From positions 1 to 22,955 of IMG/VR virus record IMGVR_UViG_3300038701_000796: 22,955 bases of DNA. One strand, 5' to 3'. This DNA comes from a virus. Position 1 is the first letter of the stretch. Each line of letters begins with the position of its first letter. This document shows, piece after piece, positions 315 to 20,796 of this stretch. Made by a program: the position numbers and the translations under genes. Under the pieces are notes generated by a model. The model searched no databases and was not told the DNA's origin. It saw nothing but the letters and a program-made list of their open reading frames with translations.

Positions 315-1250
315 ATGATTAAAAAAAACAATAAAGGAGACAGCGAGTATAGATTTAGAATGAATGATTATACTGCTAAAAAAATAGGATTAACACCTGT
401 TAAATCTAAAAGATATAGATTAAAAAAAAATACAGATGCCTTAAAAAAATTCTCTGAATTAAATATGGAAAAACCTATAAAGCGTTTGTTTTTTGATATT
501 GAAACAAGTCCTATGATTGTTTATAGTTGGCGGGTTGGTTGGAAATTAAATATACATACGGATAATATAATACAAGATTGGAAGGTTATATGTATCTCTT
601 ATAAGTGGGAACACGAAGATAAAGTTAGAAATTTAACTTGGGATAAAAACCAATGTGATAAAAAAATGTTAAAAACATTCATTGAAATAGCTAATTCAGC
701 AGATGAAATAATAGCACACAATGGAGATAGATTTGATATAAAAAAAATAAGAACAAGGTGCATTTACCACAGAATCCCTACTTTTCCAAAATATAGAACT
801 TTAGATACATTAAAAAAAGCTAAAAGTGGCTTTAATTTTAATTCTAATAGATTAGATTATATTGCTAAGTTTTTGGGGGTTGGTGCTAAATTAGAACACG
901 AGGGTTTCGATATGTGGGTTAAATGTATGCAGAACGATAAAAAAGCGTTAAAAGATATGGTAAGATATTGTGATATGGATATAATCGTGTTAGAAGATGT
1001 TTATCTAACAATGCAATCTTACATTAAACCAAATACACACGCTGGAGTTATTAATGGTAATATGAAATACAGTTGCCCAAATTGTGGTAATGAACACGAT
1101 ATAACATTATTAAAGAATGATGTTACAGAAAAAGGCACAGTTAGTCGCGTTATGGAATGTAACAGTTGTGGACATAATTATAATATTAGTAATTCAAGTT
1201 ATAAAAATTTAATTCAATTTAAAACTGATAAAGGACTGTTAAATGGCTAA
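315..1250 (+). CDS. DEDD-type 3'-5' exonuclease (RNase H fold) with C-terminal zinc ribbon
   Basis: This 311-residue protein carries the three acidic motifs of DnaQ/PolB-type 3'-5' exonucleases. Motif I is FDIET with D61 and E63, motif II is IIAHNGDRFD around H135-D141, and motif III is YCDMD with Y218 and D222. The C-terminus holds two CxxC pairs (C254/C257 and C282/C285), as in a zinc ribbon that could bind nucleic acid. No polymerase domain is present, so it is a stand-alone nuclease. It is the first gene of the packaging cluster and overlaps the next gene by eight bases. By family it would remove nucleotides from DNA or RNA ends with two metal ions. The substrate is unknown; DNA-end trimming, recombination or host RNA turnover are all possible. 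Confidence 0.8.
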   Translation: MIKKNNKGDSEYRFRMNDYTAKKIGLTPVKSKRYRLKKNTDALKKFSELNMEKPIKRLFFDIETSPMIVYSWRVGWKLNIHTDNIIQDWKVICISYKWEHEDKVRNLTWDKNQCDKKMLKTFIEIANSADEIIAHNGDRFDIKKIRTRCIYHRIPTFPKYRTLDTLKKAKSGFNFNSNRLDYIAKFLGVGAKLEHEGFDMWVKCMQNDKKALKDMVRYCDMDIIVLEDVYLTMQSYIKPNTHAGVINGNMKYSCPNCGNEHDITLLKNDVTEKGTVSRVMECNSCGHNYNISNSSYKNLIQFKTDKGLLNG

Positions 1251-1731
1251 CATACTACAATCATTATCAAAAAAAGATGCTTACTGGCGTGAAGTGGCTC
1301 TAAAGATAACAGGAAACAAACACTTGGCAGATGAATTAGTACAAAATATGTATCTTAAAATCTATTCTGCTAATCCTGAAAAATGGAATTACAGCTATGT
1401 TATATTAACAATCTATAATCTATTCAAAGACGTTAAGAAATCTAATAAATATAATGTAGAAATAGAGGATGATAAAACAAAAGATGTTACAATATCAGAT
1501 AATTATAGTTATACTAATAGAGAGATTGAAATCTTAAATAGAATCGAAAATTTAACAGATTACGAAAAAGAATTAATCTATTTAAATTACGATTTGTCAA
1601 CTGGTAAAATAGCTAAAGAGTACAATCAATGTCGAATAAAGACGTACAGGCACTTAATTAAAATAAGAAAAAAGATATTAGGGGAGGATTTACAAGGCTA
1701 TAATAATAAACGTTTAAAATGGAGGAAATAG
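1243..1731 (+). CDS. Small sigma-70-family-like transcription factor
   Basis: The 162-residue product has the two-domain layout of a minimal (ECF-type) sigma factor. Residues ~12-68 resemble region 2, including the helix ending LADELVQNMYLKIY, which is close to the conserved ADDLVQE stretch. Residues ~95-145 resemble region 4, ending in a helix-turn-helix (GKIAKEYNQCRIKTYRHLIKIRKKIL, residues 119-144). The linker is short and acidic. It overlaps the exonuclease gene upstream and the small gene downstream, so it is translated with the packaging cluster. Inferred role: directing host RNA polymerase to phage promoters, possibly the repeated element found at 3650, 10556 and 13651. Similar proteins beside phage terminases could instead act as DNA-binding packaging regulators, so function is not certain. 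Confidence 0.65.
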   Translation: MANILQSLSKKDAYWREVALKITGNKHLADELVQNMYLKIYSANPEKWNYSYVILTIYNLFKDVKKSNKYNVEIEDDKTKDVTISDNYSYTNREIEILNRIENLTDYEKELIYLNYDLSTGKIAKEYNQCRIKTYRHLIKIRKKILGEDLQGYNNKRLKWRK

Positions 1732-1940
1732 AAATTACATTTACGCCTGAAATAGTTGAAGATATTACAAAAGATTTAGTAAGTAAAACAACTATTGACT
1801 TTATTATTAATTATGAGGATAGCATCTTAAACATAGAACAGTTAACAGAAATAAAAAATAATTTTATACAAGATGAATTTTATTATTATGCTGAGGCTGT
1901 AAATAGAGCGATTAAAGCTATTAAAATTATATTTGAATAA
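1719..1940 (+). CDS. Small acidic helical protein of unknown function
   Basis: This 73-residue acidic protein (MEEIEITFTPEIVEDITKDL at the start) is predicted mostly helical, with aromatic clusters such as DEFYYYAEAVNRAI near the C-terminus. The start codon lies inside the end of the sigma-like gene (13-base overlap), suggesting coupled translation. I do not recognise a domain. Its place between the sigma-like gene and terS fits a small phage accessory protein. Confidence 0.6.
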   Translation: MEEIEITFTPEIVEDITKDLVSKTTIDFIINYEDSILNIEQLTEIKNNFIQDEFYYYAEAVNRAIKAIKIIFE

Positions 1941-1960
1941 ACAATACTAAAATCAAACAA

Positions 1961-2257
1961 ATGGCAAGAGGGGGTAAAAGAAAAGGTGCTGGACGCCCAA
2001 CTAAAGTAGATGAAGAAAAGGCTAATCATATATTTTTAACAGCACTTAAAGAAATACATAAAACAGATACAGACGACAAAACAAAGATAGCTTTTGTAAA
2101 AGATTTGTACGATTCTCAAAGGGGGCAAATGTTTATTGCTGAACACGTTTTCGGAAAGCCAAAAGAAACCGTAGAGAATATAAACCACACAATAGACAGT
2201 ACACTATCTAAAGAAGAAATAAAAGCGTTAAAGTCTGAAATTATTAATGACTACTAA
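1961..2257 (+). CDS. Terminase small subunit (putative)
   Basis: This 98-residue basic protein begins MARGGKRKGAGRPTK, the GxRxGAGRP signature common at the N-terminus of phage small terminases and other phage DNA-binding proteins. The rest is a helical segment (~18-70) and an acidic tail. It lies directly upstream of, and overlaps by 11 bases, the large terminase gene, the standard position of terS. It would recognise the phage packaging site and load the large subunit. The family is small and divergent, so the call rests mainly on the signature and position. Confidence 0.7.
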   Translation: MARGGKRKGAGRPTKVDEEKANHIFLTALKEIHKTDTDDKTKIAFVKDLYDSQRGQMFIAEHVFGKPKETVENINHTIDSTLSKEEIKALKSEIINDY

Positions 2258-3650
2258 TGTTAAGAAATTAAAAGTATTAAAGTATATGTGCGAGGATAGT
2301 TTACTATTTTACGCACGTTATATTTATAAAGAAAATCATAATAGAAAATTCATTCAATCTAAACACTTTGAGATAATAGCAGAGTATTTAGAAAAGGTTT
2401 ATAGATTAGAAACTACTAGGCTAATTATAAACATCCCTCCAAGATATGGTAAAACAGAATTGGTTATAAAGATATTTGTTAGTTGGTGTTTAGCAAAAGT
2501 AAATTATGCTAAGTTTATACACTTATCTTATTCTGATTCCCTAGCCTTAGACAATTCAAGCCAAACAAAAGAATATATTCAATCCGAAGCTTATCAAAGA
2601 CTTTGGAAAATGGAGCTTAAAAAAGATGCTCAATCTAAAAAGAAATGGTTTAATGAGTTTGGAGGTGGTATGTATGCTACAGCTTCTGGTGGTGCAATTA
2701 CTGGATTTGGTGCGGGTGTAGATGGTGTAGACGGTTTTGGTGGTGCAATCTTAATTGATGACCCTTTAAAGCCTGACGACGCATTTAGCGAGGTTGAGCG
2801 TAATAAAGTAAACCAACGTTATAACAATACCATAAGGTCAAGAACAAATACAGATAACACGCCTATTATTGTTATTATGCAAAGACTACACGAAGATGAT
2901 TTAAGTGGTTATTTGTTAGGTGGTGGCTCAGGTGAAACTTGGGAACATTTATGTTTACCAGCGTTAAACGAAAACAATGAGCCTTTATTCCCTCACAAAC
3001 ATACATTTGAGCAATTAGAAAGTATACGACAGGCAGACAGATATACTTTTGCAGGTCAATATATGCAAAAACCTGCACCTGACGAGGGTGGTGAATGGCG
3101 TCGAGATTGGTTTAATATTATAGATAAAAAAGATTTGCCAAAAGGAATAAGATGGACTATGTATATCGATGGTGCTTATACTAAAGATACGAAGAACGAC
3201 CCTACAGGTATACAGGTTTCTGCAAGGTCTGGGAATGATTTGTACATATACTCTAGTATAGATAAATATTTAGAAATGCCTGAATTAATAAAGTATATTG
3301 ATTCACATATAATAGCTTTAGATTTAGATATACAAATGATAAAAGTAGAGCCTAAAGCAAGTGGTAAATCCTTGGTTCAGTTAATCAGAGATACTACAAA
3401 ATACAATATATCAGAAATTAAATCAAATTTTGTTAAGGTTTCTAAAATAGAACGTGCTAGGACTTCATCACCTTACATTGAAGGGGGGCGTGTTCATTTA
3501 GTAAAAGGTAATTGGAATGAACCTTTTTTACATCAAATTTCTTTATTTCCAAATGGTAAACACGATGAACATATAGATTTAACTGCATACGCTATAGAAG
3601 ACCATCTACTCATAAACTCAGACCTTTACAATCATAAATTACGTTGGTAG
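2247..3650 (+). CDS. terL: Terminase large subunit, ATPase and nuclease
   Basis: The 467-residue protein has the normal length and domain order of a phage packaging motor. Walker A is PPRYGKTE (64-71) and Walker B is AILIDDP (167-173). A following block VIMQRLHEDDLSG (209-221) is typical of the coupling region. The C-terminal nuclease domain begins near MYIDGAY (D308) and continues through EPKASGKS to DEHIDLTAYA, providing the expected acidic residues. It pumps DNA into the prohead through the portal and cuts the concatemer. The stop codon overlaps the first base of the candidate late promoter at 3650. The portal gene is more than 10 kb away, which is unusual, since the two are commonly adjacent. 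Confidence 0.95.
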   Translation: MTTNVKKLKVLKYMCEDSLLFYARYIYKENHNRKFIQSKHFEIIAEYLEKVYRLETTRLIINIPPRYGKTELVIKIFVSWCLAKVNYAKFIHLSYSDSLALDNSSQTKEYIQSEAYQRLWKMELKKDAQSKKKWFNEFGGGMYATASGGAITGFGAGVDGVDGFGGAILIDDPLKPDDAFSEVERNKVNQRYNNTIRSRTNTDNTPIIVIMQRLHEDDLSGYLLGGGSGETWEHLCLPALNENNEPLFPHKHTFEQLESIRQADRYTFAGQYMQKPAPDEGGEWRRDWFNIIDKKDLPKGIRWTMYIDGAYTKDTKNDPTGIQVSARSGNDLYIYSSIDKYLEMPELIKYIDSHIIALDLDIQMIKVEPKASGKSLVQLIRDTTKYNISEIKSNFVKVSKIERARTSSPYIEGGRVHLVKGNWNEPFLHQISLFPNGKHDEHIDLTAYAIEDHLLINSDLYNHKLRW

Positions 3651-3682
3651 TAACAATATAGCAAAATTTTAGTTATACAAAT
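3650..3682 (+). promoter_or_regulatory. Candidate phage late promoter, copy 1
   Basis: GTAACAA (3650-3656), 13 bases, then TAGTTATACAAAT (3670-3682) directly abuts the ATG at 3683. The same element, with identical 13-base spacing, precedes the genes at 10592 and 13685. It does not fit the host TTTG/TAnnTTTG consensus. If the second box acts like a -7 or -10 element, the mRNA would be nearly leaderless. Confidence 0.6.
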
Positions 3683-10555: not shown

Positions 10556-10591
10556 GTAACAAAAAAAATTAATAATAGTTATATAGATGAT
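10556..10591 (+). promoter_or_regulatory. Candidate phage late promoter, copy 2
   Basis: GTAACAA (10556-10562), 13 bases, then TAGTTATATAGAT (10576-10588) lie just before the ATG at 10592. There is no TTTG/TAnnTTTG promoter on this strand before the head operon, so this element is the best candidate for driving it. Confidence 0.6.
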
Positions 10592-13381: not shown

Positions 13382-13412
13382 AACCCTTACTTTAATTAGT
13401 AGGGGTTTTTTT
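13382..13412 (+). terminator. Terminator after the tail tube gene
   Basis: AACCCTTACT (13382-13391) pairs with AGTAGGGGTT (13398-13407) around TTAATT, with one G-U pair, followed by five T. The leftward gene at 13631 ends inside its loop (stop at 13394-13392). Confidence 0.85.
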
Positions 13413-13631
13413 AAATCTAAAATTAAACAAAACACTTCTTAAAAAATTAATTAGTTTAGGGTGTTCTAAAACTTGAAACTTTGTTAAATTACTTTTTGTT
13501 TTTTCATTAAATATAATTACAACTTTATACTTATCTTTTAAAAAGTTAATTAACATTTCTCTATATTTTTCTTTTTCTTTATCATCCCAATTCGCTGAAT
13601 TTGGTACTTGTACTATTAAATGTTTTTCCAT
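13392..13631 (-). CDS. Small leftward protein sharing a peptide with the portal
   Basis: This 79-residue protein is read against all surrounding late genes. It begins MEKHLIVQVPNSANWDDKEK and continues with charged helices and a hydrophobic strand (YKVVIIF). Residues 9-23 (VPNSANWDDKEKEKY) closely match portal residues 229-243 (VPNSAHWDDAQKDEY). I chose the ATG at 13631 over an in-frame TTG at 13646, because a good host-type promoter ends four bases before this ATG; the message would be leaderless or nearly so. The family is not recognised. The C-terminal codons overlap the rightward terminator. It may be an early-expressed regulator or moron inserted between two late operons. Confidence 0.6.
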   Translation of the reverse strand: MEKHLIVQVPNSANWDDKEKEKYREMLINFLKDKYKVVIIFNEKTKSNLTKFQVLEHPKLINFLRSVLFNFRFKKTPTN

Positions 13632-13635
13632 AAAA

Positions 13636-13665
13636 CAAATATACAAAAAAGTAACAATAAAACAA
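13636..13665 (-). promoter_or_regulatory. Leftward Bacteroidota-type promoter overlapping a late promoter
   Basis: On the minus strand TTG (13665-13663), 19 bases and TATATTTG (13643-13636) fit the host consensus and drive the gene at 13631. The box positions overlap the candidate rightward late promoter (13651-13683), so the two polymerases could not bind at once. Confidence 0.65.
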
Positions 13666-13683
13666 TTAATTAGTTATATAAAT
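13651..13683 (+). promoter_or_regulatory. Candidate phage late promoter, copy 3
   Basis: GTAACAA (13651-13657), 13 bases, TAGTTATATAAAT (13671-13683), then one base before the ATG at 13685. It is the same two-box element as at 3650 and 10556 and precedes the portal operon. Confidence 0.6.
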
Positions 13684-13993: not shown

Positions 13994-15698
13994 AAACGGC
14001 GATATTGTTTTTATAGGCTTTAACAAATATACTAAACAGCCAATCAAAGAAAATACCTACAAGAATTGGGTAATGAATGGCAAAAATAATGAAAATTACA
14101 AGTTCATTATTGATATGTATAATGGCTCAACTACAAATAAGGCTATTAATAACGCTTACATTGATTTAGCTTATGGTAGAGGTTTAGCTATACATGATGA
14201 TGATGAAAATGAAACTAAATTAAAAGAACTTTTAGAGTATTTTCCTAAAAAGAATCATAAACCAGTTTTAGTTGACAATCAAATTTTAGGGGAGTTAGCT
14301 TTTCAAGTGCATAGGCAAAAAGGTAATAAAAAAGCCTTAGCAAAGATTGAACATATAGCAAAAGCGAATGTAATTCCAAGTATAGAAGATGAAGACGGTA
14401 ATATTCGCAGTTATTGGTATTCTGCGGATTGGGATAAACAATATCAAAATAAATATAAGCCTCGAGAATACCCAGCTTTAGGTTATGCCGAAGATTTTGA
14501 TTACGAAAGACCTGAAATATATGTAGGTAAGCCTTATGTAATTGGTACAGAATACTTTGCAACCCCTGACTATGACGCTTGTTTACAGTATTGTAGTATA
14601 GAGCAAGAAATATCTAATTTTTACGACAGCCATATAAAAAATGGTTTAAGTTTTGGAACTATTATAAACGTACCAAATTCGGCGCATTGGGATGATGCTC
14701 AAAAAGATGAGTATATTAAAGACGTAAAAGGGCGTTATACAGGGTCAAGTGCGGCAGGTAGATTAGCGTTTAATTTCAAGCCTCACGATGGGCAAGATAG
14801 TACCATTTCAAATGTAGAGAATAATACAGCGCACAAACAGTGGGATTTCTTAACTAAAGAGGCTAGTAGTAAGATTATTTCAGCACATAAATGTATGTCG
14901 CCTATGATTGTAGGTTTAGGGTCTGCTAGTGGTTTTAGTTCGAAATCAGATGAAATGGATATGATGGAACAGCAACTAATGAAAAGAGTAATTGCACCAA
15001 AACAAGATTTCTTTTTAGACTGCTTAAAAGAAGTTTTTGAAACTTTTAATTTAGAATTTGATTGCTATTTAAGACCGCTTACAGAAATAGAGGGCGAAAA
15101 AGAAGAAGAAGAAAAAGTAGATAAAAAAGACGTTGAGCAAGAAGTTGAAATGTCTAAAAAAAAAAGTGAATTAGAAATATTTATAGATAAGGGCGAAATT
15201 GAAGACTTAGAAAACTATGATATTATAGATGAAAATGAAGTTGATTATAATGAGGAAATACAACTTGTAAGTACAGGAACTGCAAGACCAAATAGTAAAA
15301 GTAGTCAAGATACTGATGATATTGTAATTCGTTATAGATATGTAGGTAATAAAAACCCTGAAAGAGCATTCTGTAAAGCTATGATGTCAGCGAATAAGGT
15401 GTATAGAAAAGAGGATATTGAACAGTTGAGTAATAAAACAGTAAATGCGGGTTGGGGTCCTAATGGAGTAGACCAATACTCTATTTGGTTATATAAAGGC
15501 GGTGGTAATTGCCATCATAAATGGAATAGAGTAATTTATTTAAAGAAAGGGAAAAGTGTTGATGTTAACAGTCCTTTAGCTAAAATGATTAGCACAAGTG
15601 AGGCACGTAGACGAGGTTATAAAGTAGAAACTAATGATAGTAAAGTAAGTATAGAGCCTAGAAATATGAAAAACAAAGGATTTTTAAAACCAAGATAA
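13986..15698 (+). CDS. Portal protein with an extra C-terminal domain
   Basis: The 570-residue protein has a portal-like body (residues 1-~365). It includes GLSFGTIINVPNSAHWDDAQ followed by RYTGSSAAGR and later SAHKCMSPMIVGLGSASGFS, a pattern typical of Bacteroidota phage portals. A very acidic Lys/Glu linker (~369-425) then joins a second domain (~440-520) with ERAFCKAMMSANKVYRKEDI, GWGPNG and KGGGNCHHKWNRVIYLKK, which has Cys/His residues that could bind metal. The portal forms the dodecameric DNA gate at one capsid vertex. The extra domain may be a fused minor head or morphogenesis protein, since no separate gp7/gpF-like gene is present. It overlaps genes on both sides. Confidence 0.8.
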   Translation: MSKNGDIVFIGFNKYTKQPIKENTYKNWVMNGKNNENYKFIIDMYNGSTTNKAINNAYIDLAYGRGLAIHDDDENETKLKELLEYFPKKNHKPVLVDNQILGELAFQVHRQKGNKKALAKIEHIAKANVIPSIEDEDGNIRSYWYSADWDKQYQNKYKPREYPALGYAEDFDYERPEIYVGKPYVIGTEYFATPDYDACLQYCSIEQEISNFYDSHIKNGLSFGTIINVPNSAHWDDAQKDEYIKDVKGRYTGSSAAGRLAFNFKPHDGQDSTISNVENNTAHKQWDFLTKEASSKIISAHKCMSPMIVGLGSASGFSSKSDEMDMMEQQLMKRVIAPKQDFFLDCLKEVFETFNLEFDCYLRPLTEIEGEKEEEEKVDKKDVEQEVEMSKKKSELEIFIDKGEIEDLENYDIIDENEVDYNEEIQLVSTGTARPNSKSSQDTDDIVIRYRYVGNKNPERAFCKAMMSANKVYRKEDIEQLSNKTVNAGWGPNGVDQYSIWLYKGGGNCHHKWNRVIYLKKGKSVDVNSPLAKMISTSEARRRGYKVETNDSKVSIEPRNMKNKGFLKPR

Positions 15699-20718: not shown

Positions 20719-20723
20719 AAAAG

Positions 20724-20796
20724 CACAATGGGTAAGACTCGAACTTACAACCTTTAGTTTTGGAAACTAACGCTCTACCAATTGAGCTACCAAAGT
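20724..20796 (-). tRNA. trnW: tRNA-Trp (anticodon CCA), with an imperfect acceptor stem
   Basis: The 73-nt cloverleaf has D arm GCTC/GAGC, anticodon stem TTAGT/ACTAA with loop TTCCAAA (anticodon CCA), a 5-nt variable loop and T arm GTAAG/CTTAC with loop TTCGAGT. The acceptor stem ACTTTGG/CCATTGT has two adjacent U-U mismatches at positions 3 and 4. CCA is not encoded. It has its own host-type promoter and terminator and is read against the late genes. Genes here use TGA as a stop (for example at 5415 and 6470), so this is an ordinary Trp tRNA rather than a recoding one. Confidence 0.75.

Follow-up and report, generated by a model that had tools for sequence, protein, structure and literature searches.

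The sigma gene and its surroundings

The window, an IMG/VR virus record of 22,955 bases (G+C 30.5%), carries terminase, protease, portal and endolysin genes of a virus of marine Bacteroidota bacteria. Its nearest named relatives are the Nonlabens phages P12024L and P12024S (genus Inhavirus), which are the only named phages to match the window's sigma or portal protein; many other late genes of the window also match theirs, and in the same order. Around the gene at 1243-1731 the order is an exonuclease gene, the sigma gene, a small reading frame (orf1719), a probable terminase small subunit gene (terS) and the large subunit gene terL (Table 1). The probable terS has no family match in Pfam or PHROGs. 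The initial annotation placed the sigma-like gene directly before the first operon headed by a repeated element; the order was right, but orf1719, terS and terL intervene before the copy at 3650, which follows terL.

A cognate anti-sigma gene beside the sigma gene is common in ECF groups. The frame that occupies this position here, orf1719, matches no family in Pfam, PHROGs or NCBIfam, and on comparison its equivalence to gene 36 of P12024L was unsupported.

Table 1. Features of the window at the sigma gene and at the repeated element
Feature	Position	Strand	Basis and remarks
Phage sigma factor gene, 162 aa	1243..1731	+	Sigma2 residues 1-70, linker 71-88, sigma4 89-147, from profiles and predicted fold
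Embedded fourth element, GTTACAA-N13-TAGTTATA	1486..1513	+	One mismatch; score 20.3; in sigma linker codons
orf1719, 73 aa	1719..1940	+	No family match; kept after the sigma gene in close relatives
Probable terminase small subunit gene (terS)	1961..2257	+	Position before terL; GGKRKGAGRPTK start; start of P12024L gene 38 similar
Terminase large subunit gene (terL)	2247..3650	+	phrog_38, 8e-90
Element 1	3650..3677	+	Exact motif; 5 nt before ATG of gene 3683; conserved in orthologues
Element 2	10556..10583	+	Exact motif; 8 nt before ATG of S78-type protease gene 10592; conserved in orthologues
Element 3	13651..13678	+	Exact motif; 6 nt before ATG of gene 13685; conserved in orthologues

A two-domain sigma protein

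Profile matches and a predicted fold support the reading of the 1243-1731 product as a sigma-70 protein of two domains, region 2 and region 4, in an ECF-like design. Taken alone, the window protein matches NCBIfam TIGR02937 (sigma70-ECF) at E 5e-6 with 26.2 bits, which does not reach the curated cut-off of 42.9, PHROGs phrog_1740 (sigma factor) at 2e-4 and Pfam Sigma70_r2 at E 0.018, while a phmmer search of the PDB with the single protein gave nothing useful. Support for sigma identity is moderate from this one sequence and strong when its 30 relatives are added. In the resulting alignment of 31 members, TIGR02937 matches 29 at 0.001 (best 4.6e-14) and Sigma70_r2 is present in 25; region 4 is weak by sequence, Sigma70_r4_2 being found in only 4 of the 31. 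The family profile finds ECF sigmas in the PDB, with M. tuberculosis SigL at 1e-4 and SigE at 2e-4. All 31 members belong to phrog_31712, a PHROGs family of unknown function. Models of RinA/ArpU-type late activators are absent from the Pfam, PHROGs and NCBIfam matches at E <=1, a search that distant kinship could escape.

Structure prediction, proposed as a check when the small sigma-like protein with region 2 and region 4 features was first noticed, gives both domains and agrees with the family profiles. The AlphaFold2 model (mean pLDDT 80) has two confident domains joined by a loose, low-confidence linker at residues 71-85, and its pTM is only 0.41 because the arrangement of sigma2 relative to sigma4 is not fixed. 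The predicted sigma2 domain superposes on SigR (1h3l) at 1.8 A over 66 residues (Z 9.2) and on RpoE (5uxx) at 2.3 A over 75 residues (Z 10.1), and the predicted sigma4 domain on the -35-reading domain of SigC (2o8x) at 2.0 A over 59 residues (Z 7.8). Full-chain matches of the model to ECF sigmas cover residues 1-152. As in group IV sigmas, only a short linker separates sigma2 from sigma4 in these 162 residues, and regions 1.1 and 3 are missing.

Scanning IMG/VR with a small family alignment found 163 relatives confirmed by tblastn, including gene 35 of P12024L, and 80 of these loci were retained. The same search of a prokaryote collection with one genome per species (about 85,000 species) returned 63 pattern matches and 0 relatives. 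No prophage form thus came to light in these genome contigs, as would be expected of lytic phages.

The repeated element

The element repeated in the window consists of two boxes, GTAACAA-N13-TAGTTATA, and occurs there in three exact copies; a spacer of 13 nt fits, and a pattern scan with 14 nt misses the element. A family weight matrix finds 4 sites in the window at a score of at least 20. All four lie on the + strand, and 100 first-order Markov shuffles of the window gave a mean of 0.00 such sites. The element is real, and chance in AT-rich DNA is ruled out by the shuffles together with the collection scans. The same two boxes stand upstream of the orthologues of genes 3683, 10592 and 13685 in other contigs, and gene 13685 itself stands ahead of the portal gene.

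When the element is sought together with an ATG 5 nt downstream (element-N5-ATG), IMG/VR yields 33 stretches, each with at least two genes of the phage family of P12024 and the window, and most of them fall exactly at the start of an orthologue of gene 3683, 10592 or 13685. With 33 of 33 stretches in one phage family, the element serves as a diagnostic tag. In 257 Gb of prokaryote genomes the pattern occurs in only 5 stretches, unrelated and without any gene of the phage family, on contigs whose titles name Burkholderiales, Erysipelotrichaceae, Acidimicrobiaceae, Ecksteinia and Clostridia. Across 28 thinned sigma loci, an ATG lies 3-7 nt downstream of 20 of the 22 intergenic sites and exactly 5 nt downstream of 13; in several relatives the gap is 20-28 nt.

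Sites of the sigma-70 consensus TTGACA/TATAAT occur in the first 4.5 kb at chance level (28 against 27.3 expected). The host primary sigma reads TTTG/TAnnTTTG (PMC6847099). No host-type -7 box (TAnnTTTG) lies alongside the elements on the + strand, and a promoter of this type was sought but not seen before gene 315, upstream of the window's sigma operon.

Joint occurrence and divergence of sigma and element

Of 8 records that bear the element and are 19 kb or longer, 7 have the sigma gene; the one exception, of 23 kb, is possibly a fragment. Conversely, most sigma loci have the element upstream of gene 3683, and a few that show no clear element (L189, L196 and L144) are fragments. The sigma of the P12024 branch has diverged, and the element there takes the form ACAAA-N14-CGTTAATATA; the exact motif of the window is missing from P12024L. 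With a weight matrix trained on other P12024-like contigs and P12024L held out as the test, seven diverged sites were found in that phage, before the late-unit genes 01, 05, 08, 37, 42, 45 and 46, and in each the ATG lies 30-31 nt from the start of the site. Both refuting conditions set with the initial annotation were tested and neither held: a sigma fold is predicted, and relatives that bear the sigma gene carry either the motif or a diverged form of the same design in the same kind of place. The protein family and the motif occur together across phages, and the initial interpretation is supported.

Over 30 loci, a partial Mantel test between sigma and promoter distances, given the gene-3683 protein, leaves r 0.34 (p 0.0005), whereas no correlation remains when the correction is reversed (r 0.02, p 0.36). 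Distances of the sigma and of the neighbouring protein correlate at 0.95; the co-occurrence and co-divergence of sigma and element are in part shared ancestry, which the partial test only partly removes. Inspection by eye found no single sigma residues that would explain whether A or C precedes GTT in the -10-like box.

In two relatives (L139 and L141) an element lies before the sigma operon itself, in tandem with a host-type TATATTTG box, an arrangement that fits a first synthesis driven by the host and then autoactivation, or self-amplification. A TATATTTG box also lies in P12024L just ahead of the operon whose last gene is the sigma gene.

A copy within the sigma gene

The cluster of sigma and terminase genes had been described as lacking the element. 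This has to be corrected, since the copy embedded in the sigma gene means that the cluster does carry it. Sigma genes, 12.9 kb in all, contain 6 sites scoring at least 15, and coding sequence outside them, 303 kb, contains 3. All of the embedded sigma-gene sites map to residues 73-82, within the linker, and share one reading phase, and the linker peptides that they encode differ by lineage (VTISDNYSY, VTNDNIISY, VTKEDNFSY, VTNTEVISL and ETKINDFSL). Members of the P12024 branch have the corresponding site downstream of the sigma gene and not inside it; at loci L158, L149 and L143 it is immediately 3' of the gene, and in P12024L the site before gene 37 heads the terminase genes, one small gene past the sigma. 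To judge from these positions, the embedded site would be the terminase promoter, which in the branch of the window would have become part of the sigma gene.

A probable late sigma and its promoters

The reading favoured here, with a probability of roughly 0.86, is that of a phage late sigma with its cognate late promoters, whose transcripts would have their 5' ends at the AUG or close to it. A CGT core in the -10 region, comparable to the core of the -10-like box here, marks a putative class of ECF promoters in Flavobacterium psychrophilum (PMC9723704). The scheme that we infer, from core-polymerase binding and element recognition to middle-gene timing and near-leaderless starts, begins with early promoters that would be read by the host polymerase with its primary sigma. 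The phage protein, with its group IV/ECF-like design of region 2, linker and region 4, would be made from the upstream operon, whose transcription in relatives would begin at host-type promoters. It would bind the host core RNA polymerase and direct it to late promoters that the host primary sigma does not read. Region 4 would read the -35-like box GTAACAA with its AAC core, and region 2 the -10-like box TAGTTATA with its GTT core, 13 nt away. In this way it would turn on the terminase unit, from the putative promoter within the sigma gene, and the structural units that elements 1 to 3 precede. With about 5 nt between the -10-like box and the AUG, the late mRNAs probably begin at the AUG or within a few nucleotides of it. 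Starts at or next to the AUG would also be expected by analogy with phage 7-11, in which transcription starts 6-9 bp from the promoter box (PMC8948821).

Three other explanations of the element have to be weighed against a cognate sigma. The element might be the binding site of another phage activator or antiterminator that recruits the host holoenzyme, the sigma-like protein acting elsewhere or only helping. Several conserved genes of unknown function, such as orf1719, lie nearby, and co-occurrence cannot separate genes that are inherited jointly. The boxes, however, lie 20-22 nt apart, which suits a two-domain sigma, and no host-type TAnnTTTG -7 box accompanies the elements on the + strand. 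The divergence of the element moreover tracks the sigma and not the gene-3683 protein, and phage 7-11 has a distant homologue whose role as a late sigma is proven (PMC8948821). This explanation is accordingly considered improbable, though it is the strongest of the three.

Far less credence is given to the two that remain. If a host alternative (ECF) sigma read the element in place of the phage protein, the flavobacterial ECF promoters with a CGT core in the -10 region (PMC9723704) would offer a parallel. Yet 257 Gb of prokaryote genomes hold only 5 stretches with element and ATG, none from Bacteroidota, so that no host regulon uses the element in its element-ATG form, and the phage has a sigma of its own that keeps step with the element; a host sigma is therefore very unlikely to be the reader. 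That the element is a translation signal or other mRNA feature of late genes, and not a promoter, would account for its near-constant distance from the ATG, and an A-rich context before the AUG does favour initiation in Flavobacterium (PMC6847099). Against this, the GTAACAA box is conserved about 30 nt upstream of the start codon while the spacer is degenerate, the distance widens to 20-28 nt in several relatives, and the copies within sigma genes have no start codon at a matching spacing. The element is also limited to the first genes of late units, and an Rfam search found only a tRNA, and hence no known structured RNA under the element. A translation signal or mRNA feature is accordingly considered very unlikely.

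A wider claim may be attached to this reading: that a large family of lytic Bacteroidota phages relies on a phage-encoded ECF-like sigma and on late promoters at a fixed distance of about 5 nt from the AUG, with leaderless or near-leaderless mRNAs as the product of essentially every late unit, and that one branch holds the terminase promoter in the linker codons of the sigma gene, which would then carry a target of its own product. The odds on this broader statement are put at a little better than even. Leaderless late mRNAs would, if real, be unusual for the phylum, since leaderless mRNAs make up 5.5% in F. psychrophilum (PMC9723704); in F. johnsoniae 87% of predicted leaders exceed 10 nt (PMC6847099). 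A fixed promoter-AUG spacing would, if true, mean that late phage genes are as a rule translated from leaderless mRNAs. Phages of Bacteroidota are common in the sea, and the sigma and its promoter form a testable pair whose dozens of naturally diverged versions are a data set on sigma/promoter co-evolution and would probably also supply orthogonal parts for gene expression in Flavobacteria.

Comparison with known systems

The sigma orthologues in Inhavirus, gene 35 of P12024L and gene 33 of P12024S, occupy the same place before the terminase genes and were annotated by their depositors as containing Sigma-70 region 2, in a record that names no promoters. The initial annotation knew of no such sigma-promoter pair in Bacteroidota, and neither a pair of this kind nor a late-promoter system for phages of the phylum was found described in the open-access literature searched.

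Phage-encoded factors of comparable function are known from other hosts. Like the window protein, T4 gp55 is a small specificity factor that works with the host polymerase at late-gene promoters; T4 late transcription further uses gp33 as co-activator and gp45 as sliding clamp (PMC7892883), and the window system differs from it in having a -35-like box and a region 4. The gp36 protein of phiEco32, a phage sigma that is annotated as ECF type, likewise serves middle and late promoters, but it has no region 4 homology and a single-box promoter, tAATGTAtA (PMC8948821). The Xpf protein of Bacillus subtilis PBSX, a sigma-like positive control factor, has the same two domains (sigma2 and sigma4; group IV) (PMC10141391); PBSX is a defective Firmicute prophage, and the likeness is one of described domains.

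The closest proven counterpart found is gp47 of the Salmonella phage 7-11, which blastp (7e-4 in a single comparison) and hhalign (probability 94%) show to be a distant homologue of the sigma family. It is a small sigma of regions 2 and 4 that uses the host core polymerase, as the window protein would, at bipartite late-gene promoters of the form GTAAtg-16-aCTA (PMC8948821). Identity to gp47 is about 29% over 140 columns, and the letters and the spacing of the promoters differ. Phage 7-11 also differs from the window's phage in being a podovirus of Salmonella with a 90-kb genome; its gp47 gene has an exonuclease gene and hypothetical genes as neighbours, whereas those of the window's sigma include the terminase genes. 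No fixed promoter-AUG spacing is reported for 7-11 in the accessible text of PMC8948821, in contrast to the near-fixed spacing here. Since a homologous late sigma is proven in 7-11, the system is of a kind already known, that of the phage late sigmas such as T4 gp55 and 7-11 gp47; what is new is its phylum, as a family-wide system in phages of Bacteroidota, the fixed geometry of promoter and AUG, and the putative promoter embedded in the sigma gene.

Late elements woven into terminator-like hairpins and genes

Ahead of gene 13685, which itself precedes the portal gene, a terminator-like hairpin is interlaced with the inferred late promoter, here called the late element, in six related phage loci from IMG/VR (locus and position: L007 937, L046 6690, L049 5548, L061 3576, L093 331 and L097 4478), as for example in CCCTAATT-GTAACAA-ATTAGGG-TTTTTT-TAGTTATA. 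The hairpin loop is the -35-like box and the T tract continues into the -10-like box, so that terminator and promoter are built from common bases.

In L063 (1467), L041 (3183) and L090 (upstream of gene 10592, the S78-type protease gene), the element lies 20-28 nt ahead of the ATG, and a second box, TAGTTATA-like or TAGTTTTTA, adjoins the ATG, which suggests that the start is shifted or doubled in these relatives. A further element is embedded near the 3' end of the gene 6467 homologue in L125 (18324), L155 (17708), L141 (12651), L136 (7967) and L153 (8927), where the encoded peptide is VTN[G/L]GNFS[F/Y]N; this element is not present in the window. Either the gene downstream is transcribed from it as an internal promoter, or what is conserved here is the peptide.

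Small genes near the sigma gene and late units

Additional features of the window
Feature	Position	Strand	Remark
orf1719	1719-1940		73 aa; no family match
Small gene	13392-13634	minus	between late units
tRNA-Trp	20723-20796	minus	anticodon CCA; right end of late region

Close relatives keep orf1719 immediately 3' of the sigma gene, and its product is a possible sigma partner or anti-sigma. The host-type TTG/TATATTTG promoter of the small gene between the late units overlaps late element 3 on the opposite strand. A stretch of its protein, VQVPNSANWDDKEKEKY, resembles NVPNSAHWDDAQKDEY of the portal protein (window coordinates given alongside, 14665-14715). Comparable small genes on the minus strand, immediately ahead of late elements, are genes 04, 07 and 44 of the Nonlabens phage P12024L.
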